Shown here: positions 946 to 64,000 of the stretch, piece by piece
How the letters are laid out: each line of letters begins with the position of its first letter
How positions within the stretch are numbered: position 1 is the stretch's first letter
NCBI RefSeq assembly: GCF_910592395.1
Contig: NC_088319.1
Span: forward strand, 1,862,001-1,926,000
Direction of reading: 5' to 3'
DNA: 64,000 nt
Source: Lineus longissimus
Lineage: Eukaryota > Nemertea > Pilidiophora > Heteronemertea > Lineidae
The notes under the pieces: generated by a model
Told to the model about the DNA's origin: nothing
The model's input: the letters and a program-made list of their open reading frames with translations, nothing else
Database searches by the model: none
Position numbers and translations under genes: made by a program

Positions 946-3900
946 ATGGAAGAAAATCAACGAGGACAGAGTGGACTTGGAGCAGACAAGCAGGAGGGTC
1001 ATGACGCCAAAGTCGATGGAACTGGAACAGGACAGGGTCACAGGAAACATAAAGCTGTGGTAACTGGAGATGGAGTTAAAATTGATTTGGAGACTGTTAA
1101 TAGAGCCTTTCTTGAATTAGCAGAGAAAGGTCGTCCAGATACTGTCAAGATATTGATAGATGCTGGGGCTGATGTTAATGCCAAGGACATTAACAATGAT
1201 ATACTCTTGCTTGCATCAGCATCTGGAGGTCATTCTGATACTGTAAAGATATTGATAGATGCTGGGGCTGATGTTGATGCCAAGGACATTAACAATGTCA
1301 CACCCTTGCTTGCATCAGCATCGGGAGGTCATTCTGATACTGTCAAGATATTGATAGATGCTGGGGCAGATGTTAATGCCAAGACCACTAACAATGACAC
1401 ACCCTTGCATTATTCAGCATCGGTAGGTCATTCTGATACTGTCAAGATATTGATAGATGCTGGGGCTGATGTTAATGCCAAGAACACTTACAATGACACA
1501 CCCTTGCTTGTATCAGCACGGGGAGGTCATTCTGATACTGTCAAGATATTGATAGATGCTGGGGCTGATGTTGATGCAAAGGGCACTAACAATGTCACAC
1601 CCTTGCTTGCATCAGCATTGGGAGGTCATTCTGATACTGTCAAGATATTGATAGATGCTGGGGCTGATGTTGATGCAAAGGGCACTAACAATGTCACACC
1701 CTTGCTTGCATCAGCATTGGGAGGTCATTCTGATACTGGCAAGATATTGATAGATGCTGGGGCTGATGTTGATGCCAAGAACACTGACAATGACACACCC
1801 TTGCTTGTATCAGCACGGGGAGGTCATTCTGATACTGTCAAGATATTGATAGATGCTGGGGCTGATGTTGATGCAAAGGGCACTAACAATGTCACTGCCT
1901 TGCTTGCATCAGCATTGGGAGGTCATTCTGATACTGTCAAGATATTGATAGATGCTGGGGCTGATGTTGATGCCAAGAACACTGACAATGACACACCCTT
2001 GTTTGTATCAGCATGGGGAGGTCATTCTGATACTGTCAAGATATTGATAGATGCTGGGGCTGATGTTGATGCAAAGGGCACTAACAATGACACACCCTTG
2101 CTTGCATCAGCACGGGGAGGTCATTCTGATACTGTCAAGATATTGATAGATGCTGGGGCTGATGTTGATGCAAAGGGCACTAACAATGACACACCCTTGC
2201 TTGTATCAGCACGGGGAGGTCATTCTGATACTGTCAAGATATTGATAGATGCTGGGACTGATGTTAATGCCAAGAGCACTAACAATGATACACCCTTGCT
2301 TGCATCAGCACGGGGAGGTCATTCTGATACTGTCAAGATATTGATAGATGCTGGGGCTGATGTTGATGCAAAGGGCACTAACAATGACATACCCTTGCTT
2401 GCATCAGCACGGGGAGGTCATTCTGATACTGTCAAGATATTGATAGATGCTGGGGCTGATGTTGATGCCAAGACCACTGACAATGACACACCCTTGTTTG
2501 CATCAGCATTGGGAGGTCATTCTGATACTGTCAAGATATTGATAGATGCTGGGGCTGATGTTAATGCCATGGACACTGACAATGACACACCCTTGCATTA
2601 TTCAGCATCGGAAGGTCATTCTGATACTGTCAAGATATTGATAGATGCTGGGGCTGATGTTAATGCCAAGAGCACTAACAATGTCACACCCTTGCATTAT
2701 TCAGCATTGGGAGGTCATTCTGATACTGGCAAGATATTGATAGCTGCTGGGGCTGATGTTGATGCCAAGAGCACTGACAATGACACACCCTTGCATTATT
2801 CAGCATCGGAAGGTCATTCTGATACTGCCAAGATATTGATAGATGCTGGGGCTGATGTTGATGCCAAGAACACTAACAATGACACACCCTTGCTTGCATC
2901 AGCACGGGGAGGTCATTCTGATACTGTCAAGATATTGATAGATGCTGGGGCTGATGTTGATGCCAAGAACACTAACAATGACACACCCTTGCTTGCATCA
3001 GCACGGGGAGGTCATTCTGATACTGTCAAGATATTGATAGATGCTGGGGCTGATGTTAATGCCAAGAACACTAACAATGTCACACCCTTGCATTATTCAG
3101 CATTGGGTGGTGATTCTGATACTGTCAAGATATTGATAGATGCTGGGGCTGATGTTAATGCCAAGAACACTAACAATGACACACCCTTGCATTATTCAGC
3201 ATTGGGAGGTGATTCTGATACTGTCAAGATATTGATAGATGCTGGGGCTGATGTTGATGCAAAGGGCATTAACAATGTCACACCCTTGTATTATTCAGCA
3301 TCGGAAGGTCATTCTGATACTGTCAAGATATTGATAGATGCTGGGGCTGATGTTGATGCCAAGAGCACTAACAATGTCACACCCTTGCATAAATCAGCAT
3401 TGGGAGGTCATTCTGATACTGTCAAGATATTGATAGATGCTGGGGCTGATGTTAATGCCAAGGACACTAACAATGACACACCCTTGCATAAATCAGCATG
3501 GGGAGGTCATTCTGATACTGCCAAGATATTGATAGATGCTGGGGCTGATGTTGATGCCAAGGACACTAAGAATGACACACCCTTGCTTGCATCAGCACGG
3601 GGAGGTCATTCTGATACTGTCAAGATATTGATAGATGCTGGGGCTGATGTTCATGCCAAGGACACTTTTAAGAACACACCCTTGCTTGTATCAGCATCGG
3701 GAGGTCATTCTGATACTGTCAAGATATTGATAGATTCTGGGGCTGATGTTGATGCCAAGGACACTAACAATGTCACACCCTTGCTTGCATCAGCACGGGG
3801 AGGTCATTCTGATACTGTCAAGATATTGATAGATGCTGGGGCTGATGTTGATGCCAAGACCACTAACAATGTCACACCCTTGCATCAAGCAACTAGAAGA

Positions 3901-6036
3901 GGGGATTTACAAGTAGTTGTGGGACTCATACTAAAGGGGGCTAATGTGAATCTTAAGAACAACCGTGGTGTGATACCTATTCATCTGGCAGTAGAAGGTA
4001 GATACATACAAATCATAAATGAACTAATGAACAAAACTGATTTAGCTGACCCTGGTGCACTCTTGATATTACACTCTTTATTACTGGAAACCGATATTGG
4101 TATGCTGAAGATTATGTGCCGCAATTCATCAGTCTACCGTGCTTGTGGCAATTACGGGAGGACCTTACTCCATGTTGCCGGACAACTCGGCTGCCATGAA
4201 TACATTCAACATTTAACAACATGTGATGGAGTCGAGGTTAATCACAAAGATCACTTTGGAAAGAGTTCACTCCACTACGCCGTAGAGATTGGGAATGAAG
4301 AGACAATACATGAACTTCTAGAAGCTGGTTGTGATGTTCATGAATTAGACTTAGCACGGAAGTCAGTTTTGCACCATGCTGCAATCAATGGACACTGCAA
4401 TCTTATAGGATTTTTCATTGAAAAATATAGGTTAGATCCATATCAGGCTGATGTTGATGGCAGGAACTGTCTCCATTATGCTGTGATCTATCGAAATGAG
4501 GACGTAGTGGCCCTGTTGATGGAGAAATACAGTGATCCTAGGAAGGATGCAAGGGACTATCGAAACAAGACACCGACTGACTACTTGCATCAGTGTGAAG
4601 AAGGCAGTTTGACATCAAAATACCTTCGAGGCTGGACATCAGGAGTTACTGCAATTGAGCTTGGTAACACCGAAAGTGATGATCATACTGCCGGAGAATG
4701 CTCTGATATTACAAATATTCCTGACTTGTGCAAAATTTCAGAACAACCATACATTGGGTCTGTAATGACAATCACAGGACACGATAATGTAAAATTTGTT
4801 AAATATGTTAAAGAAAAGGTGCAACAAGTTATAAAAGAGGTACTACCACAGATCACGCTAGTGGAGGTTTTTGGGGTTGGAAGTTCATTTGAGGCATCAA
4901 AGCATGGCATGCCTGATGAATTTGATTTTTTGGTGAAGTTGGGAGAAATTCTTCGTGAAGATTATTACGAACGTGAAGGATATCAAAATATGAAGAATTC
5001 TTATTTCAGAGATGAATCTGTGGCACCTGTCATTGGGTCATATGGGATGTGGATGTGGAGCAGACTCATGGAATATTGGAGTGATTGCGTATCAAACAAA
5101 AAGGCCACACGAAGTGATGGTGATCGCAGCTTCTGTATGTTATCGCCACCACAGAGACATCCTGATCGTAAAACCTGCACGACATGGATCTGGCTGTACA
5201 GTGATGAAATGTTTACCGACTTGCCAATATCAATAGACTTGGTGCCTGCCATTGAGGTTGACATGAGAGAGAAATACTTGGATCGGGCATCGATGATTTT
5301 TAAGAGAAAAGACTGGAAACAACCAAAAAAGTACATAGTTCCTAAAATTCCATACAGGACCAGCACGGTAGCACAAAACATTAAACCTGACGAACTTAAT
5401 CAGCTTGGGCGAATCTCCTACCCAACAATAGAGGTGGATTACCTCAAAGCTTTGGATAAACGGGTGAAGGATGTCTTCATCACAGCAAAATGTGTGAGAA
5501 AGGCAGAGGTGTGTGGCTTCAAAATTAAGATCAACAAGGGTGATATGGTATGTGGCTACAAAATAAAAAACAATAATGTCAATATTAAGTCGGTCAGTGA
5601 GTTAGTAACCAGCTACAGATTGAAATCTGCATTCTTGCATCTGGTTGGACTGTTCCTGAAGTCAGACATGTCCCTCGGGAAAATGGTCCTGATGGTGTAT
5701 GAACATTTAGAAAAGTGTCTCGAGAGAGATAATCTACCAATGCCCATGGATAATAAGGTCAATGTGTTAGCTGGGTCCAAGCTGAGTACAGAAGACAGCC
5801 TCCAGGTGACCAGGATCATGGCAAGGTTTGTCAGGCGTCTGTACGAGAGGGATGTCTCAGCTGAACAACGGGAGAGAGACTCAAGAGAAGAGGCTCAGGG
5901 ACTAACGAGACAAAGAGCAGAGTACGATCAGGAACTGGATGAATGGATTAAGACTCTTAAGAGGGATTCACTTCGAATTCATCGGAGCGAGAAACCAACA
6001 CTGAATCCAATCCTGCTTTCAAAGCTTCCCAGGTAA
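946..6036 (+). CDS. Ankyrin-array cGAS-like receptor (Mab-21 nucleotidyltransferase) fusion, gene A
   Basis: Predicted protein of about 1,696 residues. The ATG at 946 is the first in-frame Met and has A at -3 and G at +4. Residues 62-985 are 28 near-identical 33-residue ankyrin repeats with no indels, and 986 to about 1218 are divergent ankyrin repeats. From about 1262 the protein resembles the Mab-21/cGAS nucleotidyltransferase fold: a Gly-Ser motif (G1312, S1313), paired acids E1325 and D1327 in a DEFDFL context, a third acid D1431 in SIDLVP, and a Mab-21-type C-terminal helix (SYRLKSAFLHL near 1557). Spacing of the acids resembles human cGAS (E225, D227, D319). No cGAS-type H-C-C-C zinc thumb is obvious. 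The tail is a charged, helical region. In the family, such enzymes sense a ligand and make cyclic nucleotides that act on STING. Here activity and ligand are inferred. The frame is open upstream to 757, so extra N-terminal sequence from a spliced exon is possible. Confidence 0.88.
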   Translation: MEENQRGQSGLGADKQEGHDAKVDGTGTGQGHRKHKAVVTGDGVKIDLETVNRAFLELAEKGRPDTVKILIDAGADVNAKDINNDILLLASASGGHSDTVKILIDAGADVDAKDINNVTPLLASASGGHSDTVKILIDAGADVNAKTTNNDTPLHYSASVGHSDTVKILIDAGADVNAKNTYNDTPLLVSARGGHSDTVKILIDAGADVDAKGTNNVTPLLASALGGHSDTVKILIDAGADVDAKGTNNVTPLLASALGGHSDTGKILIDAGADVDAKNTDNDTPLLVSARGGHSDTVKILIDAGADVDAKGTNNVTALLASALGGHSDTVKILIDAGADVDAKNTDNDTPLFVSAWGGHSDTVKILIDAGADVDAKGTNNDTPLLASARGGHSDTVKILIDAGADVDAKGTNNDTPLLVSARGGHSDTVKILIDAGTDVNAKSTNNDTPLLASARGGHSDTVKILIDAGADVDAKGTNNDIPLLASARGGHSDTVKILIDAGADVDAKTTDNDTPLFASALGGHSDTVKILIDAGADVNAMDTDNDTPLHYSASEGHSDTVKILIDAGADVNAKSTNNVTPLHYSALGGHSDTGKILIAAGADVDAKSTDNDTPLHYSASEGHSDTAKILIDAGADVDAKNTNNDTPLLASARGGHSDTVKILIDAGADVDAKNTNNDTPLLASARGGHSDTVKILIDAGADVNAKNTNNVTPLHYSALGGDSDTVKILIDAGADVNAKNTNNDTPLHYSALGGDSDTVKILIDAGADVDAKGINNVTPLYYSASEGHSDTVKILIDAGADVDAKSTNNVTPLHKSALGGHSDTVKILIDAGADVNAKDTNNDTPLHKSAWGGHSDTAKILIDAGADVDAKDTKNDTPLLASARGGHSDTVKILIDAGADVHAKDTFKNTPLLVSASGGHSDTVKILIDSGADVDAKDTNNVTPLLASARGGHSDTVKILIDAGADVDAKTTNNVTPLHQATRRGDLQVVVGLILKGANVNLKNNRGVIPIHLAVEGRYIQIINELMNKTDLADPGALLILHSLLLETDIGMLKIMCRNSSVYRACGNYGRTLLHVAGQLGCHEYIQHLTTCDGVEVNHKDHFGKSSLHYAVEIGNEETIHELLEAGCDVHELDLARKSVLHHAAINGHCNLIGFFIEKYRLDPYQADVDGRNCLHYAVIYRNEDVVALLMEKYSDPRKDARDYRNKTPTDYLHQCEEGSLTSKYLRGWTSGVTAIELGNTESDDHTAGECSDITNIPDLCKISEQPYIGSVMTITGHDNVKFVKYVKEKVQQVIKEVLPQITLVEVFGVGSSFEASKHGMPDEFDFLVKLGEILREDYYEREGYQNMKNSYFRDESVAPVIGSYGMWMWSRLMEYWSDCVSNKKATRSDGDRSFCMLSPPQRHPDRKTCTTWIWLYSDEMFTDLPISIDLVPAIEVDMREKYLDRASMIFKRKDWKQPKKYIVPKIPYRTSTVAQNIKPDELNQLGRISYPTIEVDYLKALDKRVKDVFITAKCVRKAEVCGFKIKINKGDMVCGYKIKNNNVNIKSVSELVTSYRLKSAFLHLVGLFLKSDMSLGKMVLMVYEHLEKCLERDNLPMPMDNKVNVLAGSKLSTEDSLQVTRIMARFVRRLYERDVSAEQRERDSREEAQGLTRQRAEYDQELDEWIKTLKRDSLRIHRSEKPTLNPILLSKLPR
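1129..3900 (+). repeat. 28 x 99-bp coding ankyrin repeat array (gene A)
   Basis: Exactly 28 units of 99 bp (2,772 bp) with no indels, each encoding one 33-residue ankyrin repeat. The framework GHSDTVKILIDAGADV is almost invariant at DNA level. Variation is confined to a few codons: the D/N after ADV, the residue after AK (D, N, T, G, S), the D/V before TPL, the two residues after TPL (LA, LV, HY, HK, FA, YY), and the two residues after SA (R, S, L or W, then G, E or V). The last unit passes directly into divergent ankyrin repeats. Confidence 0.97.
3901..4605 (+). other. Divergent ankyrin repeats linking the array to the enzyme domain
   Basis: Residues 986 to about 1218 of gene A read as further ankyrin repeats (for example HLAVEG, LLHVAGQLG, SLHYAVEIGNEE, VLHHAAINGH, CLHYAVIYRNED). 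They are diverged from each other and from the array in both protein and DNA. Their age contrasts with the homogeneous array, so only the array has been recently amplified or homogenised. Confidence 0.8.
4735..5840 (+). other. cGLR / Mab-21 nucleotidyltransferase domain
   Basis: Domain within gene A. Seen directly: Gly-Ser codons at 4879-4884, Glu at 4918, Asp at 4924, third Asp at 5236, and the C-terminal SYRLKS segment near 5611. The order and spacing match the cGAS/Mab-21 family. All three metal-binding acids are present, unlike many MAB21L paralogues that have lost them, so catalysis is plausible. Product and ligand cannot be read from sequence. Confidence 0.8.
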
Positions 6037-9645: not shown

Positions 9646-10150
9646 AGGTCCACAACTGGTATTGGGTGTTATAATGCTATTTCATAAATATACAAAATTG
9701 CAATTTCACGAACTTGCGAAATAAAAGGTTGACAAATATTTCTGGGTTTACGGTAATGTTGGGCAATAAAATTTGATTTAAGAAAAACTGAACTCTGAAG
9801 AAATCGGTCCAGTATCTTTTGCACAGCGGATCAAAAGGACACGGACATTTACTTCTGAATAGTATAGTAAACCATGATAAAACTTGTGTATGTTATCTAA
9901 ATATTTGTATTTCATCATCTTCTACTTGTTGTAAGACTTTGACTTTAACTTGGATGTTGTAGATCAATAATAAATTGAATTCTCTACCTGAACCTTATTT
10001 ACATATTTTAGAGATCTTCCTGGTCCCCCTTCATTAGATATTTTTACGTGAATTTTCAGCCCCTTTTCATCTCTTCCTCAGGAGTGTACTATGGCACGGC
10101 TTGACAAGCCAGCCACGGAGGAATGCCTTTATGGCCTCATGTTTGGCGTG
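9646..10150. other. Gene-free spacer
   Basis: AT-rich; no gene or repeat recognised. It leads into the 108-bp minisatellite. Confidence 0.4.
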
Positions 10151-10835
10151 GGATCTTTGCCAGACAGGCTACAACCCGAGCACTTCCAATCAATGACCAT
10201 TTGTACCCCTCGGTGGAGCAGCAACAACTCCCCAAATTGGCTACAACTGGCAACACAGGGATCTTTGCCAGACAGGCTACAACCTGAGCACTTCCATTCA
10301 ATGACCATTTCTACCCCTCGGTGGAGCAGCAACAACTCCCCAAATTGGCTACAACTGGCAACACAGGGATCTTTGCCAGACAGGCTACAACCCGAGCACT
10401 TCCAATCAATGACCATTTCTACCCCTCGGTGGAGCAGCAACAACTCCCCAAATTGGCTACAACTGGCAAAACAGGGATCTTTGCCAAACAGGCTACAACC
10501 CGAGCACTTCCATTCAATGACCATTTCTACCCCTCGGTGGAGCAGCAACAACTCCCCAAATTGGCTACAACTGGCAACACAGGGATCTTTGCCAGACAGG
10601 CTACAACCCGAGCACTTCCAATCAATGACCATTTCTACCCCTCGGTGGAGCAGCAACAACTCCCCAAATTGGCTACAACTGGCAAAACAGGGATCTTTGC
10701 CAAACAGGCTACAACCCGAGCACTTCCAATCAATGACCATTTCTACCCCTCGGTGGAGCAGCAACAACTCCCCAAATTGACTACAACTGGCAACACAGGG
10801 ATCTTTGCCAGACAGGCTACCGCCAGTAACCATTT
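10151..10835 (+). repeat. 108-bp minisatellite, 6 full copies plus a partial one
   Basis: Units begin GGATCTTTGCCAGACAGGC at 10151, 10259, 10367, 10475, 10583, 10691 and 10799, a strict 108-bp period. There is little variation (CAATCAATG/CATTCAATG, CAGACAGG/AAACAGG), partly alternating, so a higher-order 216-bp unit is possible. Because 108 is a multiple of three and the unit lacks stops in several frames, long open frames appear on both strands. I do not regard them as genes. Confidence 0.95.
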
Positions 10836-10848
10836 ATACCCATCGGAC

Positions 10849-11345
10849 CAGGGTCCTAATGACCGCTGTGGTCAGAGACCTGTGCCAATACCGTGGCACC
10901 TCGCATCAAACCAGGGTCCTAATGACCACTGTGGTCAGAGACCTGTGCCAATACCCCGGCCCCTCACATCAAACCAGGGTCCTAATGACCGCTGTGGTCA
11001 GAGACCTGTGCCAATATCATAGCCCCTCACATCAAACCAGGGTCCTAATGACCGCTGTGGTCAGAGACCTGTGCCAATACCCCGGCCCCTCACATCAAAC
11101 CAGGGTCCTAATGACCGCTGTGGTCAGAGACCTGTGCCAATACTGCAGCCCCTCACATCAAACCAGGGTCTTAATGACAGCTGTGGTCGGAGACCTGCGC
11201 CAATACCGCAGCCCCTCGCATCAAACCAGGGTCCCAATGACCGCTGTGGTCAGAGACCTGTGCCAATACCGCAGCCCCTCGCATCAAACCAGGGTCCTAA
11301 TGACCGCTGTGGTCAGAGACCTGTGCCAATACCGCAGCCCCTCCT
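10849..11345 (+). repeat. 63-bp minisatellite, 8 copies
   Basis: Units begin GGGTCCTAATGACCGCTGTGG at about 10851, 10914, 10977, 11040, 11103, 11166, 11229 and 11292. The period is 63 bp (21 codons), so open frames run through it. It directly abuts the 108-bp minisatellite but is unrelated in sequence. Confidence 0.95.
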
Positions 11346-12094: not shown

Positions 12095-14600
12095 AGGTTA
12101 CCAGGACGTGTTGTCCATAATGTTAAGTCCCAGCGGCGACATGGTGCGCAGACGATGGATCCAGGAAGACTCTCTGGATAGTCTTTAGGCCTTGGCGACT
12201 GTACCATCTGGGGCGATGTGCATAAATTCTAGGACATAGATTGAGAAGTCCTGGAGGCCATGATGATCTGGGAGGTTGAAATGATGTCCTATGACATCCG
12301 TTGCAATGTTTTTGGTAAAACTGTAGAAGTGATTTTGAAAACGTTCTAGTAAAGATCGTTTGGTTTCGCCGACGTATTGTATGTGACATTGACGGCATTC
12401 GATGCAATAAATCACATTATTGCTTTTACAACATATTTTTGTCTTTGTGTTGTATGATTTGCCTGTGGTATGGCTGGTGATTTGACCAGACGTGTCCAGA
12501 CGGGGGCAGTATCTGCATGTCCTCGGGGAAAGACAATTCCACCGAGGTTTGGAGGCAGTAGTGCTGTTGGTAACTGCGCGAAGATGGCCTAATCTGGCTC
12601 GGACTAGGTTGTCTCTGAGGTTTTTTGATCTTCTGAAGCCATGTATGATTGGTGTCTCATACAGGTGAACAGTAGTTTTGTGTCTAGCTAGGATGTCCCT
12701 GTTTTCTTTAAGGTTGACGGCTGGTTAAGTCATTGCCGGTGTAATATATGTGAGTGTTTCCCGTGTGTGAGTGTTTCCCCTCATTGTTTGGGAACGCTCA
12801 AAAATAGATTGACAAGTTTTTCTGTGTATCCCCCCTATTGAAAAGTCGTGGTCTCTCTAGCTGCCTATTGTTTGGAAACACTGACACATGGGGAACAACC
12901 ACAGATGTTACACCGGGTTGAAGGTTGTGACAAAGAAAAATGGGTTTTTTTCTTCATCATCAGGCGCCCCTTGGGTGGCGATTGGGTTTTGTAATGTGTT
13001 GCGATCTTGCCTGTGTGCTTTTACCATGGTTTTCTCTATCAATAGCTTGGGGAAGCCTCTGCGGACGAAATGCTGTGCTATCTCGGGTGCATGTTTCTCG
13101 AAGTCCTCCCGGTTCGAACATATTCTCCGAATTCTTAGGAATTGTCCATAGGGTATGCAATTTTTGCATGACATTATATGGGCTGATGAGTACAACAGGT
13201 AGTTGTGAGCATCGGTGGGTTTGGTGTTCAGATCTGTGTGTATCTAACCGTCAGTAGCGACGTGAATCTGAGTGTCAAGAAACGTGACGCTGGTCTCTGA
13301 GATTTCGGCGGTGAATTTGATGGTTGGATGTGCCGAGTTTAGTGACGTCACAAATTGTTCAACCTCCTCTATGGTTTGTGGGAAGAGAGCGATCGCGAAG
13401 ATGTCGTCAATGAATCTGCCCCAAAAGAGTGGTTTCGTGGGGTTAGTTTATACATGCCGCTCTTCAAAATCGGCCATGAAGAGATTTGCGAATGAGGGTG
13501 CCACTTTGGTCCCCATGGCTGTGTCTGAAACTTGCATGTATAGTTCTGGTTGTTGAACTGGAAGTTATTTTGTGATAAAACTAAGTCCAAAAGTTTGATG
13601 ATGAACTGGTTAGTAGGGCCTATTTGGGCGCCCCTGTTTCTTAGATGGCGTGCCACAGCTCTTTTACCCTCCCATGTGGGTATGTTGGTATAGAGGGATG
13701 TGACATCTAAAGTGACCAGCAGGATGCCAGGTGGGATTTGTCCCTGGGCTGTCATGGACTGTTGAAAATGGGTTGTGTCCTTGATGTATGAACGTGTGTT
13801 CTGAACCAATGGTTGTAGAAAATGGTCCGCTAATTGGGAGATGCGTTCTGTGGGGCAATCATCAGCAGACATAATGGGCCTACCTGGTGGTGGCAGTGTC
13901 CCTTTATTTATTTTTGGCTGTAAATAGAACTCGGGAGTTTTGGGTTCCGTTTGGGCGACATCATCATACATTTTTTTTGAGTGATTTCACCCGTTTGCAG
14001 CATGTCCTTAAGAAAGGATGTGACATTGTCCGCGTGGGTTTGGGTCATGCTATCGAGGGTCGGACGGTAGTGTGTCCGATTTGACAGTTGACGTTCCGCT
14101 TCCTTGATGTAATCACTTCTGTTCATGATTAATACGGCAGATCCTTTGTCTGCGGGTTTTATAACGACCTGAGGCATGTCCTTGAGTTGGATCAATGCTT
14201 CTCTTTCTGCCCCGGTGAGGTTGTGCGAGGCAGGTGAGTATAGAGGGATGCGATCGAAGTGGTATTCATTCGTCCTGATAAAAGCCTCAAGATCTGGGGG
14301 ACCAGGGGGTTCCATTTTGAGGGCAATTTTAATTTGCGTTCAAGATCGTTGGGCCTGGTGGGGGTTGGGTCTGAGTCAGCGTCACTTTCATAAACAAATG
14401 CCCTGCATGCGTCTGAGACTGACATGGAATTTATCCAAGTCCTTGAAAAGTTCTCCGAAATCGGGTTCGCCTGGTGTGGGGCAAAAATTCAGACCTTTGC
14501 TCAGAAGAGAGGTCTGAGCTGCGGTAAGAGTTATGTCGGACAAATTGATAACATACTCAGTGTTCACTTTCGGGGTGGGTGTCCCCCTGGAGTTTAATAA
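12095..14600 (-). pseudogene. Penelope-like retroelement (RT + GIY-YIG), frameshifted
   Basis: On the minus strand, successive frames carry parts of one Penelope-like protein. The N-terminal part has LLSKGLNFCPTP near 14480-14515 and ADKGSAVLIMNRSDYI near 14110-14150. The reverse transcriptase part has PGRPIMSADD, LDVTSLYTNIP near 13680 and the catalytic FIDDIF near 13400. Next come IPYGQFLRIRRICS near 13130 and NLRDNLVRARL near 12600. The C-terminus is a GIY-YIG endonuclease with CIECRQCHIQYVGETKRSLL near 12345-12405. The frame changes several times, for example just before the AMGTK segment near 13520, so this copy is dead. Ends are not defined, and neither terminal repeats nor a target duplication were found. 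Confidence 0.88.
12185..12415 (-). pseudogene. GIY-YIG endonuclease remnant of the Penelope-like element
   Basis: Fragment of 76 residues with a CxxC pair, then YVGET (the second half of the GIY-YIG signature), KRSLLERFQNH with the conserved Arg, and a downstream FNLPDHH histidine segment. In Penelope-like elements this C-terminal nuclease nicks the target for reverse transcription. It is separated from the RT part by frame changes. Confidence 0.85.
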
Positions 14601-16128: not shown

Positions 16129-17113
16129 CTTCAATTCGTGACAGTGAGTCCGGATGCGTTTCAGTCTTGGAGCAGATTCTATTAACCGAGGACTCCGTTT
16201 TTCACGCCACGTGCTAGTGCTACTGCAGTCCATTATGTACATTACGTGTACACCTACGTGATTTCTAACTCGTTCATTTCATCGGGAGGCAGAATAGTGA
16301 CGTTCGTTTGTCAATATAATATTTATAAAATCGTGAATTTTTTCTAAACTGTTCGTGACGTAAGTGCGAATTTCATTATATTTATATATCGTCACTTTTG
16401 TTATTTCTGTCACTGTGATCGCCATGAATCACTGTGAGTGTGAGCGCAGCATTTTTTAATCGATTGACGGACACCGTCTTCGTCAGTACGCATAGTACAC
16501 GTCTATCTCTGTGTGTACCGAACCATTCAACTTCTACATCATGACATGTGCTATAACGTTCACGGATGATGTGCCCAGCAGCCAGAATACTCTTCAATTC
16601 GCCCTGATGTCTACTCGAGATCCGATACCGTTCCAGGCTCCAGCTGATCCAGCGTTGCAGTTTTAAAAGAGACATTTTATCAACTTTTTTGAAAGACATT
16701 TTATAAACTTTTGAGAGACATTTGTAAACTTTTTGATAGTCATTTATATTAACTGTTTTGAAAGACATTTTATAAACTAATTAGTAATAGGACAATATTT
16801 TTGTGCATCATTTCAATTTTGGCAGAGTATAGTACAATACTTTGCAATATCAGTCGATTCATAGCATTTAATGCATTTAATCTTAAATATTCACTCGTTA
16901 TTGCAAACTGACTGGAACCGGACCCCGAGGATTTTGACAACTGTATATCTATAATATGAACTTTGTTTAGCTTTGCCCTGTTACAGCAAGATAGACAACG
17001 GACCAACCCAACCTTTAATGTTGCATTTCCTTTTCAGAAGAAATTAACTTTTGCTTCCCAAATACCTGACTTTTTATTCCTTCATAACTAACTTTTACCC
17101 CTTTACAGTAATA
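16129..17113 (+). other. Retrotransposon leader region
   Basis: Nearly 1 kb between primer site and gag start with no long sense frame. Short imperfect repeats of GACATTTTATAAACTTTT occur around 16668-16780. Antisense open frames here have no domain. Confidence 0.5.
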
Positions 17114-18352
17114 ATGGAAGGGCCAGCAGATCCAGCACCACCTGCTTTCAGGGGCACCGATTTTCTACCTCCTTTGTTTGATGGTGAAGTGATCGACCAT
17201 GACATTTGTCATGCACATATCTTATCGTTTATGGACTACCTTCACTTCCACAATCTCCACGAGCCAGCAAATGCTGCAGAGATGATTCATATCATAACAT
17301 TGTTCAAGGCTAGACTTCGTGGCAAAGCACGTCTGTGGGCAGAGGGAAAAGTTTTCCCCACTATCGCTAATCTCAGAGCACAGTTTATGCAGCGGTTCAG
17401 TCCAACCCATTCAAATTTTGCCAATGTCAAGCATTTTCATTCTCTTTCCCATACCCCAGGCGATTCAGCCGAAATGACTCTCAATAAGATACGCTTAGCA
17501 GCCCAGCGTATTCATTATAATGAGGTCCAGGTTCGGGACAAATTCTTACAGGTTTTGCCTACCAATTGTCAGGCAGCAGTCATCATGGCTGCCCCTGCAG
17601 ATGCAGACGTGGCAGTTCTCGTTGAACGTGCTCAACAATATTTAGATTTTTCTGAGCCAGACAGGCCAACTACTGCTAATAAGCAGGTATCATTTATCAC
17701 TGATCAGGTCCATGTGGCCACTGCTAGTGCATCCACTAACAGTAGTGCTTGCGCAGTTGACAGGCTTACTGAGCAACTTGCTGCTCTTCGCACAGAAGTG
17801 CAAGATTTGTCTATAGAGGTCAGGACTCAACCTCAGGTTCATTTTAGTCAACCACAGTCCAACTCTGATACTGGTGCTCGTACATATAGCTCGAACTACC
17901 GTTCAAGTTCGCCATCTCCTGTGAGTCATCAGTCTAGACGTCCTAGTCGTAGTCCGGCTAGAGACCGTTATCGTTATAGTCATCGTGTATCCAGTAGATC
18001 CCCATGTAGGGACAGTCGTCGTTCTCAGGGTTCCTATGGTATTTCTCGTTCTGGTAACTCTCCCCGTCGTGCCACCTCCAACATTGTCTGTTATTTCTGC
18101 CACAAACCCAATCATGTGTGGAGAAACTGTTATACTTACCAGAACATGGTCAGTCGTGGGATGAACCCTACTTTCATGCCCGTAAGGCCTCCAGCGCCAC
18201 CCTTTTCTCCGTCCCATTATCAGCCATCAGATAATGGTCAACAGTTTCGTCAGGACACTCGATGTCCTCAACCCTACCCGTTCCAATCCTATAAGCCAGA
18301 TAACAGGTCTAGGTTTGATCAGTACTCTGGACCACAACAGCAAAATTTTTAG
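17114..18352 (+). CDS. gag: Retrotransposon Gag
   Basis: 412 residues from the ATG at 17114 (start MEGPADP). The N-terminal half has a Ty3-type capsid look (FLPPLFDGEVID, then LRGKARLWAEG and AQFMQRFSP). The C-terminal half is rich in Ser and Arg, followed by one CCHC zinc knuckle at residues 326-339 (C-x2-C-x4-H-x4-C), which binds the element RNA. The tail is rich in Pro, Gln and Tyr. The gene ends at TAG 18350-18352, directly after a slippery heptamer that feeds pol. Confidence 0.92.
   Translation: MEGPADPAPPAFRGTDFLPPLFDGEVIDHDICHAHILSFMDYLHFHNLHEPANAAEMIHIITLFKARLRGKARLWAEGKVFPTIANLRAQFMQRFSPTHSNFANVKHFHSLSHTPGDSAEMTLNKIRLAAQRIHYNEVQVRDKFLQVLPTNCQAAVIMAAPADADVAVLVERAQQYLDFSEPDRPTTANKQVSFITDQVHVATASASTNSSACAVDRLTEQLAALRTEVQDLSIEVRTQPQVHFSQPQSNSDTGARTYSSNYRSSSPSPVSHQSRRPSRSPARDRYRYSHRVSSRSPCRDSRRSQGSYGISRSGNSPRRATSNIVCYFCHKPNHVWRNCYTYQNMVSRGMNPTFMPVRPPAPPFSPSHYQPSDNGQQFRQDTRCPQPYPFQSYKPDNRSRFDQYSGPQQQNF
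18343..18349 (+). promoter_or_regulatory. -1 ribosomal frameshift site between gag and pol
   Basis: The heptamer A AAT TTT fits X XXY YYZ in the gag frame and sits right before the gag stop codon TAG. Pol is open in the -1 frame from 18319 to 22590, so a -1 slip here gives a Gag-Pol fusion. I did not identify a downstream pseudoknot by eye. Confidence 0.75.
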
Positions 18353-21300
18353 ATAGGAGAAGCACTAACTGCCACTTAGATGCCTCTCCGACTCTATTTT
18401 CTGCTCAGCATTCTGGTGATCAACATTCTAGTGATCATTTGTCTTCATCGTATAATCCACATTCTGAATATCTTGGTGAATCCTCTGCTGACATTCAGCT
18501 CACTTCTAGGAATTATGCCAAAGGTTATTTACCCACAGGCCAAGGTTTGGTCATTTTATTTGATTCAGGAGCCACTGAGACTCTGATTGGTTTGGAAACT
18601 GTAAGGGACTCCCCCTATTTGTCCAAATTGCCCAAGGTTGATATTAAACCAATCAAATTTCGTATTGGTAATGGAGAATTTTTGTTTGCAAAACAGGCCA
18701 TTAAGCCTAAACTTACTATTCAAGGGAACCATTTCAATGTATACAGTGTCATAGCTGAAAATTTCATTGGTCCTGATATTCTTTTGGGTACATCTACCAT
18801 GAAGGAACTCAAAGGTTCTTTGGATTTCATTACAAATTCGTTCAAGGTCAGGTCAAAGAAGGCTTGGTTACGTCCTACTGTCAATACTGTCATTAGACCA
18901 GGTCAGGTTAGGGTCATTCATGTTAAAGGCAAATTGCCCCATCACATGAAAAACTCGGCACTCATATTGAATTCATCGTCTCATTTGTCTAGGTTTTGTC
19001 CTTCAACCATGATGGTCAAATTAAAACACGGTTTAGCTCCTATTCGTATTTATAACCATTCTCGTAAACCCGTCAATATTCGGTCTGACAAGCCTATTGT
19101 CTTCACCAACTTGGATGATTTTATTCATGTAACTCAAAGTTTGTCTCCAAGCTGCCTCAAGCAAAATCAACCCTGTGCTCCGTCACAACCACCTGTTGAT
19201 GATCAAGACTCGCATTTGTCAGCTAGGGACATTTTAAGGCGAGATGTTAAATTAGACCATAGTATTCTGTCTACGCCAGAACAGGCCAGTGTGTATGATA
19301 TTTTGGAAAACCATGCTCCAGCATTTAGTCTTCGAGGTGAGGTTGGGACTTGTCCCAATTTTGAGGTGGACATCCATCTCAAGGATGAAACCCCTTTCTA
19401 TATCCGACCATATCCGGTCGCTGAGGAAAACAAACCTCTCATTGATAAGGAACTTGATAAATTAGTCAAGTTGGGCATTTTGCATCAAGGACATACATCA
19501 TATTCCAGTCCAATTTTGCTTGTCAAGAAGAAGGATTCTACTGAGAAGCGCGTTGTAACAGATTTTCGGTTTTTAAATAGTCGAGTTCATTGTGCAAATC
19601 AAGATTTCACTCCTTTGAAAACCATCTTAGCTAGAATCGGTCAGTCAAATTGTAAAGTCTTGAGTGTCATAGATTTGAAAAGTGCTTTTCATTGTCTACC
19701 TTTGTCTCGTAGGGCACAGGCCTACACCGGCATATCTGCCTACAACGGTGGTCGAACTTTTTACTATCGTAGACTTCCAATGGGTTTGTCCATTTCTCCG
19801 TCCATTTTCTCTCAGAAAATCAATGATATCCTTTCTAATATTCCCAACTCTAATCTCTTTTGCTGTGCAGTACATGATGACATTCTCATCTTCAGTAAAG
19901 ATAAGAAAGAGCATACTGTACATCTGCAACAAATTTTCCAGGCTTTTGTTGATCATTCTTCTTTGGTTCAGATTGTAAAGTCAAAGAAGCAGCCACCGAC
20001 CACTAGGTTGCAAAAGCTGCTTGAGCGACTGTCTCCCTATAGTTTTCAGTTGTCGTACATGCCAGGCAAAGAGCTTGTGTTAGCTGATTTCTTGTCACGT
20101 GCTCCTCTAGATGATGATACTGAGTTAGATAGGATTATGCCAATCGCGTTCCAGGCACAATCACCTGTTATTTATGAATTAGAGTCTCTTTCAACCCCTG
20201 TTCAGGAGCATGCATTTTATACACTGCCACTTCCTGAAAAGATTGTTACCAGGTCATATGCAAAGAAAATGAACATTCCTGTGCCTCTTCTGCATAGGCC
20301 AAAACCAATTCCCAAACCACGAACACATGTTCCTTGTCAGCAGACAGTGTCTGTTGCACCTACACACACTCCTCTTGTTAATGGCATTCAAAACAATGTG
20401 CCACCAGTATCTATACTTCCAAAAGCTCCACGTGTGCCCATTGTTACATCAACAGTGGCACCACCAGTGTCAGTGATTCCATTTGTTCTCCAACAGAATG
20501 ACAAATCTCAATCATCAACCAAGGTTGCTGATGAACCTAGGCTCATTGATTCCGCTCTTCCTCCATCTTCTGTCGTTGAAGAGTATTCAGATGATATTTT
20601 AGATCTCCTGGTTAGACCCACACCATTGGTTCCAAGGATTGATAGCATGCATACCAAGCATGTCCCTGATCAGGCATCTCTGAATAAGGTATTGAAGATC
20701 ATCAGACGCAAGGTGATTCGGGATTACAATCTCCCTATTGAGGCACAACAGCTTAGTACCGCACAACAGACATCTCCGTATTTTAAACCCATATATGATT
20801 ACTTAGTCCATGATATCTTGCCAGCAGATAAGAAAGCTGCTAGGGTCGTTAGCATCAAATCTGAGCAGTATCTGACTTTCAATGGCATTCTGTTCAGGAT
20901 TTTCTTTCCCACCAATTCTGAGAATTTCTGTTTTCAATTAGCAGTTCCGGAAAAGTATATAGATACCATCATAGGCCAACATCATGGCTCAGGTTTGCTT
21001 CTGGGACACGGAGGATGTACCAGAACTTATCTCACCATTAGGAAAAATTTCTATTTTCCATCTATGTTCCAACGCATTGTCTCGTATATTCAATCATGTG
21101 ATAGGTGTCAACAACTTAAGGGAAAGTCTGATACTATGCGGACATTTCATGAACGCATTCCAGCCAGTTTTGAACCATTCCAGACCATTAGTATGGATTT
21201 CAAATCCATGCCCACATCTCCATCAGGTTACCGTCATATGCTAGTGGTGACATGTGCCATGACCAGGTTTGTTGTGGCCGTCCCGCTAAAGACAATTGAC

Positions 21301-55640: not shown

Positions 55641-55998
55641 TCCTTAAGTAGTTTTTCCCACGTTGATGTAAAAGTTTGGGAATTCCTTTTGCTTCAAAAG
55701 TGAAATTATTAAAAATTATGAAGTTATTAATGGTGGGGAAGAACACTGTCACTGAGGAGTGTGCAGTGTCTTTGTTTCTTATGTCGCATTTCAACAATTT
55801 CATTGATTTATTTTGTTCAGAGAAACTTTCTGCACTTGAATTAAGATCAAACCGGTTAAGATAATTGATTTCGCCAGCAAATGAATATGGTTCATAATGT
55901 CGGCTATGATTTGTGAACAGGAGAAAACTGCCAATACAACCCACAGATATATTGAGAGTTTTGAACCGTAACCTTGATTAAATGACCCTCTTATTCTT
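55641..55998 (+). pseudogene. Orphan copy of the ankyrin-cGLR 5' flank
   Basis: Matches 400-757 and 59958-60316 with few changes and a 6-bp insertion (ACTGTC near 55745). It stops just before the poly-C tract and the reading frame, and is followed by the array leader block. A minus-strand open frame here (55564-55944, 126 codons) matches frames in the other two flanks; the insertion is in frame. No domain is recognisable, so I treat it as a truncated gene-family fragment. Confidence 0.75.
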
Positions 55999-59933: not shown

Positions 59934-59964
59934 AGCCAAATCTAATATGGGTACGAGTGAATTT

Positions 59965-60504
59965 AGATTTTCCCACGTTGATGTAAAAGTTTGGGAATTC
60001 CTTTTGCTTCAAAAGTGAAATTATTAAAAATTATGAAATTATTAATGGTGGGGAAGAACACTGAGGAGTGTGCAGTGTCTTTGTTTCTTATGTCGCATTT
60101 CAACAATTTCATTGATTTATTTTGTTCAGAGAAACTTTCTGCACTTGAATTAAGATCAAACCGGTTAAGATAATTGATTTCGCCAGCAAATGAATATAGT
60201 TCATAATGTCGGTTATAATTTGTGCACAGGAGGAAACTGACAATACAACCTACAGATATATTGAGAGTTTTGAACCGAAACCTTGAATAAATGACCCTCT
60301 TATTCTTTTCATAGTTTTCCCCCCCCCCCCCCCAGTGGTCATTTATTGCCAAATCTTTCATCAATCTTCGGCTGGGAACTTTGCAGTATATCATCATCTT
60401 GCAGGTTAAAACGGCATGCAGATGAAAAGAAAAGCCCAGGAGACAGTGAAGCTGGTTCCAGAAAGCGCAAACTCGAGAATAGAAACGACAAGCTTGCTTC
60501 GAAC
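59965..60504 (+). promoter_or_regulatory. Duplicated 5' flank of ankyrin-cGLR gene B
   Basis: Nearly identical to 407-945, including the poly-C tract (60320-60333), the TTGCAG acceptor-like site and the open frame from the poly-C region. Beyond the start of this block the two genes have unrelated upstream DNA, so the duplication breakpoint is at about 59965. Confidence 0.65.
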
Positions 60505-63500
60505 ATGGAAGAAAATCAACGAGGACAGAGTGGACATGGAGCAGACAAGCAGGAGGGTCATGACGCCAAAGTCGATGGAACTGGAACAGGACAGGGTCAC
60601 AGGAAACATAAAGCTGTGGTAACTGGAGATGGAGTTAAAATTGATTTGGAGACTGTTAATAGAGCCTTTCTTGAATTAGCAGAGAAAGGTCGTCGAGATA
60701 CTGTTAAGATATTGATAGATGCTGAGGCTGATGTTAATGCCAAGGACATTAACAATGACATACTCTTGCTTGCATCAGCATCTGGAGGTCATTCTGATAC
60801 TGTAAAGATATTGATAGATGCTGGGGCTGATGTTGATGCCAAGGACATTAACAATGTCACACCCTTGCTTGCATCAGCATCGGGAGGTCATTCTGATACT
60901 GTCAAGATATTGATAGATGCTGGGGCAGATGTTAATGCCAAGACCACTAACAATGACACACCCTTGCTTGCATCAGCATCGGAAGGTCATTCTGATACTG
61001 CCAAGATATTGATAGATGCTGGGGCTGATGTTAATGCCAAGAACACTAACAATGACACACCCTTGCTTGCATCAGCATCGGGAGGTCATTCTGATACTGC
61101 CAAGATATTGATAGATGCTGGGGCTGATGTTGATGGCAAGACCACTTACAATGTCACACCCTTGCATGAAACATCATGGAGAAGTCATGATGATACTGTA
61201 ATGAAATTTATAGATGATGTGGCTGATGTTCTTGCCAACTACACTTACAATGACACACCCTTGCTTGCATCAGCACGGGGAGGTCATTCTGATACTGTCA
61301 AGATATTGATAGATGCTGGGGCTGATGTTGATGCAAAGGGCACTAACAATGTCACACCCTTGCTTGCATCAGCACGGGGAGGTCATTCTGATACTGTCAA
61401 GATATTGATAGATGCTGTGGCTGATGTTCTTGCCAACTACACTAACAATGACACACCCTTGCTTGCATCAGCACGGGGAGGTCATTCTGATACTGTCAAG
61501 ATATTGATAGATGCTGGGGCTGATGTTGATGCAAAGGGCACTAACAATGACACACCCTTGCTTGCATCAGCACGGGCAGGTCATTCTGATACTGCCAAGA
61601 TATTGATAGATTCTGGGGCTGATGTTAATGCAAAGGGCGCTAACAATGACACACCCTTGCTTGCATCAGCACGGGCAGGTCATTCTGATACTGCCAAGAT
61701 ATTGATAGATGCTGGGGCTGATGTTGATGCAAAGGACACTGACAATGACACACCCTTGCTTGCATCAGCACGGGCAGGTCATTCTGATACTGTCAAGATA
61801 TTGATAGATGCTGTGGCTGATGTTGATGCCAAGGACACTAACAATGTCACACCCTTGCTTGCATCAGCATGGGAAGGTCATTCTGATACTGTCAAGATAT
61901 TGATAGATGCTGGGGCTGATGTTAATGCCAAGAGCACTAACAATGTCACACCCTTGCATAAATCAGCATGGGAAGGTCATTCTGATACTGTCAAGATATT
62001 GATAGATGCTGGGGCTGATGTTAATGCCAAGGACACTAACAATGTCACACCCTTGCATAAATCAGCATGGGAAGGTCATTCTGATACTGTCAAGATATTG
62101 ATAGATGCTGGGGCTGATGTTAATGCCAAGGACACTAACAATGTCACACCCTTGCATAAATCAGCATCGGAAGGTCATTCTGATACTGTCAAGATATTGA
62201 TAGATGCTGGGGCTGATGTTGATGCAAAGGGCACTAACAATGTCACACCCTTGCTTGCATCAGCACGGGGAGGTCATTCTGATACTGTCAAGATATTGAT
62301 AGATGCTGGGGCTGATGTTAATGCCAAGAACACTGACAATGACACACCCTTGCTTGCATCAGTACGGGGAGGTCATTCTGATACTGTCAAGATATTGATA
62401 GATGCTGGGGCTGATGTTGATGCCAAGGACATTAACAATGTCACACCCTTGCATTATATAGCATTGGAAGGTCATTCTGATACTGTCAAGATATTGATAG
62501 ATGCTGGGGCTGATGTTCATGCCAAGAACACTAACAATGTCACACCCTTGCATTATTCAGCATGGGAAGGTCATTCTGATACTGTCAAGATATTGATAGA
62601 TGCTGGGGCTGATGTTGATGCCAAGAACACTAACAATTTCACACCCTTGCATTATTCAGCATGGGAAGGTTATTCTGATACTGTCAAGATATTGATAGAT
62701 GCTGGAGCTGATGTTAATGCCAAGAACACTAACAATGACACACCCTTGCATAAATCAGCATGGGGAGGTCATTCTGATACTGTCAAGATATTGATAGATG
62801 CTGGGGCTGATGTTGATGCCAAGAACACTAACAATGACACACCCTTGTTTGCATCAGCACGGGCAGGTCATTCTGATACTGCCAAGATATTGATAGATGC
62901 TGGGGCTGATGTTGATGCCAAGAACACTAACAATGTCACACCCTTGCATAAATCAGCATTGGGAGGTCATTCTGATACTGTCAAGATATTGATAGATGCT
63001 GGGGCTGATGTTAATGCCAAGGACACTAACAATGTCACACCCTTGCTTGCATCAGCACGGGGAGGTCATTCTGATACTGTCAAGATATTGATAGATGCTG
63101 GGGCTGATGTTAATGCCAAGGACACTAACAATGTCACACCCTTGCATAAATCAGCATGGGGAGGTCATTCTGATACTGCCAAGATATTGATAGATGCTGG
63201 GACTGATGTTAATGCCAAGACCACTAACAATGTCACACCCTTGCTTGCATCAGCACGGGGAGGTCATTCTGATACTGTCAAGATATTGATAGATGCTGGG
63301 GCTGATGTTGATGCAAAGGGCACTAAGAATGACACACCCTTGCTTGCATCAGCATCGGAAGGTCATTCTGATACTGTCAAGATATTGATAGATGCTGGGG
63401 CTGATGTTGATGCAAAGGGCATTAACAATGACACACCCTTGCTTGCATCAGCACGGGGAGGTCATTCTGATACTGTCAAGATATTGATAGATGCTGGGGC

Positions 63501-64000
63501 TGATGTTGATGCCAAGGACATTACCAATGTCACACCCTTGCATTATTCAGCATCGGCAGGTCATTCTGATACTGTCAAGATATTGATAGATGCTGGGGCT
63601 GATGTTAATGCCAAGACCACTAACAATGTCACACCCTTGCTTGCATCAGCACGGGGAGGTCATTCTGATACTGTCAAGATATTGATAGATGCTGGGGCTG
63701 ATGTTGATGCAAAGGGCATTAACAATGTCACACCCTTGCATAAATCAGCATTGGGAGGTCATTCTGATACTGTCAAGATATTGATAGATGCTGGGGCTGA
63801 TGTTAATGACAAGGACATTACCAATGACACACCCTTGCATAAATCAGTATGGGGAGGTCATTCTGATACTGTCAAGATATTGATAGATGCTGGGGCTGAT
63901 GTTGATGCCAAGGACATTACCAATGTCACACCCTTGCATTATTCAGCATCGGCAGGTCATTCTGATACTGTCAAGATATTGATAGATGCTGGGGCTGATG
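60505..64000 (+). CDS. Ankyrin-array protein, gene B (partial, runs off window)
   Basis: Start codon, N-terminal region and first repeats match gene A; by eye the 182 bp between ATG and array differ at only one base (CTTGGA to CATGGA). The frame is open to the window end, giving at least 1,165 codons. It holds 33 complete 33-residue ankyrin repeats and the start of a 34th. By homology to gene A a cGLR nucleotidyltransferase domain should follow beyond the window, but this is inferred. Repeat 1 has E for G in DAGAD. Repeats near 61183-61240 and 61411-61450 carry an odd variant (VADVLANYT), and the first of these is strongly diverged (SHDDTVMKFIDD). Confidence 0.85.
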   Translation, partial: MEENQRGQSGHGADKQEGHDAKVDGTGTGQGHRKHKAVVTGDGVKIDLETVNRAFLELAEKGRRDTVKILIDAEADVNAKDINNDILLLASASGGHSDTVKILIDAGADVDAKDINNVTPLLASASGGHSDTVKILIDAGADVNAKTTNNDTPLLASASEGHSDTAKILIDAGADVNAKNTNNDTPLLASASGGHSDTAKILIDAGADVDGKTTYNVTPLHETSWRSHDDTVMKFIDDVADVLANYTYNDTPLLASARGGHSDTVKILIDAGADVDAKGTNNVTPLLASARGGHSDTVKILIDAVADVLANYTNNDTPLLASARGGHSDTVKILIDAGADVDAKGTNNDTPLLASARAGHSDTAKILIDSGADVNAKGANNDTPLLASARAGHSDTAKILIDAGADVDAKDTDNDTPLLASARAGHSDTVKILIDAVADVDAKDTNNVTPLLASAWEGHSDTVKILIDAGADVNAKSTNNVTPLHKSAWEGHSDTVKILIDAGADVNAKDTNNVTPLHKSAWEGHSDTVKILIDAGADVNAKDTNNVTPLHKSASEGHSDTVKILIDAGADVDAKGTNNVTPLLASARGGHSDTVKILIDAGADVNAKNTDNDTPLLASVRGGHSDTVKILIDAGADVDAKDINNVTPLHYIALEGHSDTVKILIDAGADVHAKNTNNVTPLHYSAWEGHSDTVKILIDAGADVDAKNTNNFTPLHYSAWEGYSDTVKILIDAGADVNAKNTNNDTPLHKSAWGGHSDTVKILIDAGADVDAKNTNNDTPLFASARAGHSDTAKILIDAGADVDAKNTNNVTPLHKSALGGHSDTVKILIDAGADVNAKDTNNVTPLLASARGGHSDTVKILIDAGADVNAKDTNNVTPLHKSAWGGHSDTAKILIDAGTDVNAKTTNNVTPLLASARGGHSDTVKILIDAGADVDAKGTKNDTPLLASASEGHSDTVKILIDAGADVDAKGINNDTPLLASARGGHSDTVKILIDAGADVDAKDITNVTPLHYSASAGHSDTVKILIDAGADVNAKTTNNVTPLLASARGGHSDTVKILIDAGADVDAKGINNVTPLHKSALGGHSDTVKILIDAGADVNDKDITNDTPLHKSVWGGHSDTVKILIDAGADVDAKDITNVTPLHYSASAGHSDTVKILIDAGAD
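60688..64000 (+). repeat. At least 33 x 99-bp coding ankyrin repeat array (gene B)
   Basis: Units start every 99 bp from 60688; the 34th starts at 63955 in perfect phase. It uses the same variable codons as gene A but in a different order and with extra combinations (HKSAWE, LASARA, LASASE, VADVLANY). Array length and order are therefore not conserved between the two copies. Confidence 0.97.

Follow-up and report, generated by a model that had tools for sequence, protein, structure and literature searches.

Most cGAS-like receptors (cGLRs) are stand-alone enzymes (87%), and fusions of cGLRs to ankyrin repeats have already been published for Stylophora pistillata and others (PMC9980059). These animal proteins combine the same cGAS-like nucleotidyltransferase with ankyrin repeats as the gene described below, and the "unusual innate immune design" that an initial annotation saw in it is, put in that way, no novelty (PMC9980059). 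What is new and unusual is the hypervariable, reshuffled array and not the fusion itself: the passages of that paper on appended domains describe no array that is homogenised or hypervariable, and the family considered here fails the strict sequence motif that the paper sets (PMC9980059).

The likeness of the array is to another group of proteins. In the passages of two papers that deal with their repeats (PMC4986451, PMC12222747), fungal NLRs (the Podospora PNP_UDP/NACHT/ANK proteins and HET-D/HET-E, with ANK, TPR or WD repeats) have homogenised repeats that evolve in concert, a few hypervariable positions per repeat, located in the inner helices and the β-hairpin, and variation in repeat number; for fungal ankyrin repeats specifically, repeat number is polymorphic and the selected or polymorphic sites lie on the concave face, with one exception (PMC4986451). 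The array considered here resembles the fungal repeats in being homogenised, apparently by concerted evolution, in having few hypervariable positions per repeat, and in a repeat number that varies between gene copies. The fungal systems are NACHT/NB-ARC STAND proteins, while the present gene encodes a cGAS-like effector in an animal; its protein (P0001) has no Pfam match to NACHT or NB-ARC at E up to 0.001.

Two further systems offer yardsticks. PRDM9 is one gene, with a meiotic role, whose zinc fingers recognise DNA. The mean pairwise dN/dS of these fingers is 2.7, against pN/pS, a simpler measure, of 1.8 and 3.0 here; that repeats within proteins diverge fast is a general phenomenon (PMC5120217). 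In DARPins, six positions of each repeat are randomised (PMC6590788). Like the repeat described here, they have a fixed 33-aa framework with variable surface positions; they are man-made, whereas the natural variation extends to positions 1, 9, 10 and 31 and hardly touches 33. Vertebrate cGAS is not known to carry an ankyrin array; its Gly-Ser, its E-x-D and its third D stand in the same order and context as those of the present family.

The open-access literature that was searched yielded no hypervariable ankyrin array on a cGAS-like enzyme and no paper on cGAS and STING in nemerteans; among the 12 of 55 matches listed (titles and abstracts) for hypervariable ankyrin arrays of invertebrates there was no animal case alike, and among the 10 of 8,238 listed on immunity and ankyrin genes in this species none named Lineus longissimus.

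One reading frame for array and enzyme domain

The window, that is, the whole stretch of 64,000 nucleotides of Lineus longissimus DNA that was analysed, contains an intact reading frame that is confirmed to join a homogenised ankyrin array, by way of divergent ankyrin repeats, to a domain of the Mab-21/cGAS type:

946..6036, + strand: reading frame of the ankyrin array/cGAS-like protein, 1696 aa from an in-frame ATG at 946
1138..3883, + strand: homogenised array of ankyrin repeats in units of 99 bp, 27.7 copies, 92% matches (TRF)
3859..4638, + strand: divergent ankyrin linker, residues about 972-1231
4702..5940, + strand: Mab-21/cGAS-type nucleotidyltransferase domain, residues 1253-1665
4879..4884, + strand: Gly-Ser of the activation-loop motif, G1312-S1313, in 9/9 sequences covering it
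4918..4926, + strand: predicted catalytic acids 1 and 2, E1325 and D1327 (P-D-E-F-D), in 9/9 sequences covering them
5236..5238, + strand: predicted third catalytic acid, D1431 (S-I-D), in 10/10 sequences
5581..5781, + strand: Mab-21_C helical region, below threshold in the window protein (E 0.031)

The frame is uninterrupted from 946 to 6036. It is already open from 757, and the coding sequence of a Lineus relative (P0002) resembles 880-1179 of the window (74% identity); for these reasons the true start of the gene may lie further 5' and may be reached by splicing. The parts list drawn up in the initial annotation has held. Its 28-repeat array is found by TRF as 27.7 copies, of which 27 are regular 33-aa repeats, flanked at each end by a unit of less regular form; the divergent ankyrin repeats are present downstream; and the Gly-Ser and the three acids are exactly where they were said to be, at codons 4918, 4924 and 5236. 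The calculated pI is 8.8 for the nucleotidyltransferase domain and 4.6 for the ankyrin array.

The family to which the enzyme domain belongs is not evident from the window sequence by itself. The whole protein has no Mab-21 match in Pfam at E 0.001; the domain alone reaches E 0.0066-0.063 with Mab-21 and 0.03-0.04 with Mab-21_C, in both cases under the gathering score; and a single-sequence search of the PDB produces one chance match only (RIB72C, E 0.63). With a profile of relatives the assignment is clear. Two protein searches provided nine relatives of the domain, of which Lineus longissimus contributed five, JGI contigs three and ENA one, and the profile made from these and the window domain (A2) was searched against 177,635 distinct PDB sequences. 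Of its 39 matches to E 10, 37 are named cGAS, cGLR or Mab-21, many of them near-identical cGAS constructs; the best (E 8.2e-6) is 4jlx, which is named "uncharacterized" and which we take to be pig cGAS, and one unrelated match, to histone-like HU, has E 1.6. In these alignments the family's E-x-D context falls on P-N-E-F-D of cGAS, S-I-D falls on S-V-D, and G-S also falls on the corresponding stretch. Pfam at E up to 1 places Mab-21_C in all ten members of the alignment and Mab-21 in six of the ten, which bears out the C-terminal helix that the initial annotation had attributed to the Mab-21 family. Of the four proteins scanned for it, P0007, P0008 and P0010 have Mab-21_C scores over the gathering threshold and the window protein does not. 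A profile search of a large protein set gave a Montipora protein named cGLR at only E 0.044, and the motif region of that protein matches the family with an hhalign probability of 94.8% over 52 columns. Membership of the C-terminal domain in the Mab-21/cGAS nucleotidyltransferase superfamily is supported by these sequence comparisons.

(Some technical notes on the searches: when the ankyrin parts were kept in the profile, ankyrin entries crowded out the rest among the best 60 of its 652 matches; Pneumo_ncap and CsrA, matched in Pfam by the whole protein, were taken as artefacts of repeat composition; two relatives that are close but of short length, P0011 and P0012, were left out of the domain alignment; and a viral origin, sought in viral_contigs, gave 32 pattern matches of which none was confirmed.)

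Is the domain an enzyme? The acids that the initial annotation regarded as catalytic are in place throughout the family: every one of the nine sequences spanning the region has G1312-S1313, E1325 and D1327, and all ten have D1431, among relatives whose identity to the window domain, P0002 excepted, is 41-55%. The published definition of cGLRs (PMC9980059) asks for GS, 8-20 residues and [DE]h[DE]h, a third acid in h[DE]h, and homology in a C-terminal helix bundle, all of which are found here (GS, 11 residues, E-F-D-F and later I-D-L, with the bundle represented by Mab-21_C). Its strict form further specifies h[QT]GS and a third acid placed after another 50-90 residues (PMC9980059), and here the family departs from it: V precedes GS in the window protein and P0002 and C does so in seven relatives, and the spacing is 101 residues in the window protein and 94-115 in the nine family sequences measured. 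A coral protein that bears the NCBI name cGLR (P0014) fails the strict motif as well, with S before GS and 120 residues. We class the family as a divergent branch of the Mab-21/cGAS superfamily that probably works like a cGLR and lies outside the strict definition, which suggests that surveys relying on the strict motif can miss whole families. The zinc thumb of cGAS has the pattern HX5CCX6C; searched for by this pattern, the thumb of vertebrate cGAS is missing from nine of nine family sequences, and DNA sensing of the cGAS type is for that reason not suggested.

One alternative has the protein working as an ankyrin adaptor, with a C-terminal domain that is Mab-21-like but without catalytic activity and serves as a scaffold. 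It would accommodate the sub-threshold Pfam Mab-21 score of the window domain, the odd residue before GS (V or C) and the long spacing to the third acid (94-115 in nine sequences), and it has a precedent of sorts in Mab21L1 and Mab21L2, whose putative active sites are complete and whose production of a messenger, if any, is not understood (PMC9980059). However, a dead enzyme would not be expected to keep its acids and GS at 41-55% identity (P0002 apart), and a named cGLR, P0014, deviates from the strict motif too; we consider the scaffold doubtful.

Our preferred reading is that the protein is a receptor-enzyme, in which a diversifying recognition array gates a cyclic-nucleotide synthase; we give it a probability of roughly 0.55. 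The long ankyrin solenoid would present a binding face on which selection has made the contact residues differ from repeat to repeat, with gain, loss and shuffling of repeats adding to the diversity of the array. The conserved ankyrin linker would connect the array to the cGAS/Mab-21-type nucleotidyltransferase with its three acids kept, and a partner bound by the array would either release the enzyme or hold it back, switching synthesis of a cyclic (di)nucleotide. One can think of the array as the counterpart of the fungal NLR repeat sensor and of the enzyme as the counterpart of its effector, and this analogy guides the proposed mechanism. What the sequence shows is the architecture, the homology, the conserved catalytic residues, where the array diversity lies and what pattern of selection it bears, and the difference between the arrays of the two copies; ligand binding by the array, activity of the enzyme and its gating, and a role in immunity or in self/non-self recognition are inferred. 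If the reading is true, sensing, which in cGLRs usually resides in the enzyme domain, is here outsourced to a fast-changing array; two immune principles that are known separately, the strategy of HET-D/HET-E and the cGAS-like enzyme, are joined in one protein; and an animal system becomes available in which it can be tested what a diversified repeat sensor binds and how a cGAS-like enzyme is switched. A bolder version, which we offer only tentatively, is that of a combinatorial repertoire on cGAS-like enzymes: modules would be shuffled within and between copies, and each copy, perhaps each individual, would have its own paratope in control of the messenger.

What would such diversity be for? 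It might serve self/non-self recognition, allorecognition or the matching of an internal partner instead of the sensing of pathogens, a proposal that is compatible with the mechanism of the receptor-enzyme and opposed only to its purpose. The closest evolutionary analogue, Podospora HET-D/HET-E, does recognise alleles of HET-C (PMC12222747), while, on the other side, nucleic acids are the ligands of many cGLRs (PMC9980059); we judge the non-pathogen purpose improbable. (The weights given to the alternatives in this text are not mutually exclusive.)

The array and its second copy

The gene at 946..6036 (copy A) has a counterpart at the other end of the window (copy B), which, like the pattern in the diversity of the array, the initial annotation did not mention; part of the 5' flank occurs a third time:

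60295..64000, + strand: second gene copy (B), frame open to the window end, C-terminal part beyond the window
59964..60659, + strand: 5' flank and N-terminal coding sequence of copy B, 99.57% identical to 406-1100
55644..55998, + strand: orphan 5'-flank remnant, 95.2% identical to 401-749, no array directly behind it

The orphan flank is a hint of a third gene copy, since lost or rearranged. In copy B the ATG equivalent to 946 is at about 60505, and the array (60697-64000) has 33.4 units by TRF, a lower bound since the window end cuts it. Over 406-1400, which takes in the flank and the first repeats, A and B show 7 differences in 995 bp. Past the second repeat collinearity is lost: apart from the initial pair, A and B have no run of two or more consecutive repeats that agree within 2 nt each, and an A repeat lies on average 3.5 of 99 nt from its closest match in B. 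Repeat number is 27.7 in A, at least 33 in B and 20 (regular repeats) in P0002, these being counts for three genes. The arrays may have outpaced the flank after a duplication, the flank may have been converted, or alleles may have been placed in tandem; on any of these accounts the array would be the variable part.

The last of these, two alleles of one locus set in tandem by the assembler (or, as a variant, misassembled repeats), takes its appeal from the 99.57% identity of the 5' flanks and from the comparable repeat domains of fungal het-d and het-e, which Illumina assemblies failed to yield (PMC12222747). Yet the frame is open through both arrays, the differences between repeats sit mainly on a few codons, unlike read errors, and about 54 kb of other sequence, a retroelement included, separates the copies. 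We regard artefactual placement as unlikely, and if A and B were alleles the claim of hypervariability would be the stronger for it.

For copy A, the repeats analysed are the 27 regular 33-aa units picked by pattern, the less regular units before and after them being excluded; for copy B they number 31, with one degenerate repeat unmatched (leaving a gap of 66) and an incomplete last repeat dropped. The 27 repeats of A have a mean pairwise identity of 82% (aa) and 91% (nt), and adjacent repeats (lag 33) in the best 165 aa of the window protein have an identity of 0.88. In fungi, high internal conservation has been defined as repeats more than 85% identical over at least 100 aa (PMC4986451); against that criterion, whose authors used another program, the window array stands at 0.88 by lag 33 and at 82% as the mean of all pairs. 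Close as they are, the repeats remain mostly distinct: at the DNA level all 27 in A and 30 of 31 in B are unique, one being common to A and B, and the combinations at nine variable positions are unique in 24 of 27 (A) and 30 of 31 (B). The differences are confined: no base change at all is seen in 14 of 33 codons across the 27 repeats of A and in 13 of 33 across the 31 of B, and in both copies the strongly variable codons are 1, 3, 5, 9, 10, 13, 14 and 31. All four allele combinations are found at 77 of 99 pairs of sites in A and at 71 of 86 in B (four-gamete test), and linkage between codons exceeds that in shuffled data (r2 0.088 v 0.039 in A; 0.101 v 0.033 in B); the wide mixing of codon alleles fits the shuffling of a small stock of residues.

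Most of these variable positions presumably belong to the ligand face of the ankyrin fold, in the β-hairpin and inner helix. The positions randomised in DARPins are 2, 3, 5, 13, 14 and 33, and were originally picked as surface positions free to vary. Polymorphic sites are enriched at these positions, with 13/34 in A (hypergeometric P 0.0003) and 12/36 in B (P 0.004), using a set that comes from the DARPin literature and not from the variability table, though it was first applied after that table had been seen; restricting the count to variants that occur at least twice or at least three times weakens the enrichment to P 0.009-0.040. The fit is imperfect, position 33 being nearly invariant and 1, 9, 10, 31 and, less so, 20 varying outside the set.

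Selection or drift

Drift where the protein is free of constraint could by itself produce such a localisation, and for that reason synonymous sites were used as a yardstick. Over the whole repeat pN/pS is 1.78 in copy A (27 repeats) and 3.05 in copy B (31 repeats), and the ratio of pN at the six DARPin positions to whole-repeat pS is 3.58 in A and 6.49 in B; outside a set of nine positions and codon 31, pN/pS is 0.56 (A) and 0.68 (B). Inside the DARPin set it is 1.75 in A and 9.28 in B, the low A value arising because synonymous diversity is raised there too (pS is 0.112 in the DARPin codons of A and 0.055 overall).

What would neutrality yield? A model of neutral repeat copying was run with 28 repeats, with and without partial conversion and at two transition settings, replacements being free at ten codons and forbidden elsewhere (three settings, 1000 runs each). 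Its medians for the ratio of pN at DARPin positions to pS of the whole repeat are 0.83-0.92, with 99% points of 2.7-3.1, and the observed ratio is reached in 3, 2 and 5 runs of 1000 for A and in 1, 0 and 2 of 1000 for B; mean pairwise differences are 6.4-6.9 in the model, somewhat under the observed 8.4-8.6. A Fisher contrast of the nonsynonymous sites used within the DARPin set against synonymous sites used anywhere in the repeat is marginal for A (any variant: 10/15.0 v 8/23.3, P 0.055) and clear for B (11/14.3 v 5/24.0, P 0.0007), and with variants seen twice it gives P 0.029 (A) and 0.0017 (B). By mere count of sites, the nonsynonymous share is 27/34 in A and 31/36 in B, close to a neutral expectation of about 76%. 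The pattern in both copies is that of diversifying selection at a few predicted binding-face positions, with weaker results in A.

One alternative, which we judge improbable, is that concerted evolution is neutral here, folding holding the framework while loop and helix-1 residues drift with no selection for diversity: protein-level variability at DARPin positions is what it predicts if these are surface positions free to vary, it can cite the near-neutral site counts and, in copy A, the 1.75 inside the DARPin set and the Fisher P of 0.055, and longer ankyrin arrays do generally have more similar repeats (PMC7314423), but under it synonymous sites should match the free nonsynonymous ones, and instead the ratios are 3.6 and 6.5 against medians of 0.83-0.92, with P 0.0007 in the contrast for B. 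When the initial annotation called the array a sensor of a ligand or partner, the part of that claim that concerns a recognition surface has gained the backing of a selection signal at the predicted binding-face positions; control of synthesis by the array belongs with the receptor-enzyme reading set out above.

Relatives and neighbouring sequences

The Lineus paralogues P0003 and P0005 have arrays built of repeat motifs other than those of the window, with 16 repeats fitting the pattern in P0003 and 17 found and 16 used in P0005 (irregular repeats are not picked up). In both, variability is once more higher at the DARPin positions (permutation P 0.0011 for P0003 and 0.0001 for P0005), and likewise in the nine-position "surface 9" set (P 0.00015 and 0.00125), which was drawn up after the variability table of A and B and counts as a test only on these two proteins. 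P0002, close kin of the window gene with 20 regular repeats, has the same pattern (P 0.0012). These tests on P0002, P0003 and P0005 are at the protein level, without synonymous sites, and replicate localisation; they are not a test of selection. The best lag-33 identity is 0.88-0.92 in P0002, P0003 and P0005 (strong homogenisation) and 0.67 in P0006 (moderate). Three of the seven ankyrin-bearing relatives, P0004, P0007 and P0009, are without a homogenised array (lag-33 identity 0.13-0.17), and the hypervariable array is on that account a trait of only part of the family.

Names are a poor guide to these proteins: P0003 and P0005 go under the names ankyrin-1-like and PP6 ankyrin subunit B-like, which conceal the shared cGAS-like domain. 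Three ENA proteins, P0013, P0015 and P0016, are only weakly related (E 0.0085 to 0.6); their N-terminal half is Mab-21-like and is followed by several hydrophobic, possibly membrane-spanning C-terminal stretches, as judged by eye.

Between and beside the gene copies the window contains the following:

17048-22590, + strand: Ty3/gypsy-type retroelement, between the gene copies, Pfam matches in the ORF at 18319-22590
12185-14339, - strand: fragments that match GIY-YIG weakly (E 6e-4, under the cut-off), further frames with no Pfam match
10150-11343: two adjoining tandem arrays, one of 6.2 units of 108 bp and one of 7.9 units of 63 bp, several frames open
46966-48727, 50680-51842 and 53867-54953: three satellite arrays of 375/376 bp, apparently of a related unit, upstream of copy B

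The retroelement ORF at 18319-22590 matches RVT_1 (1e-17), Integrase_H2C2 (1.8e-15) and rve (9.4e-10); the ORF at 17048-18352 has no Pfam match and is gag-like by eye. The minus-strand fragments at 12185-14339 we liken to a decayed Penelope-like element.
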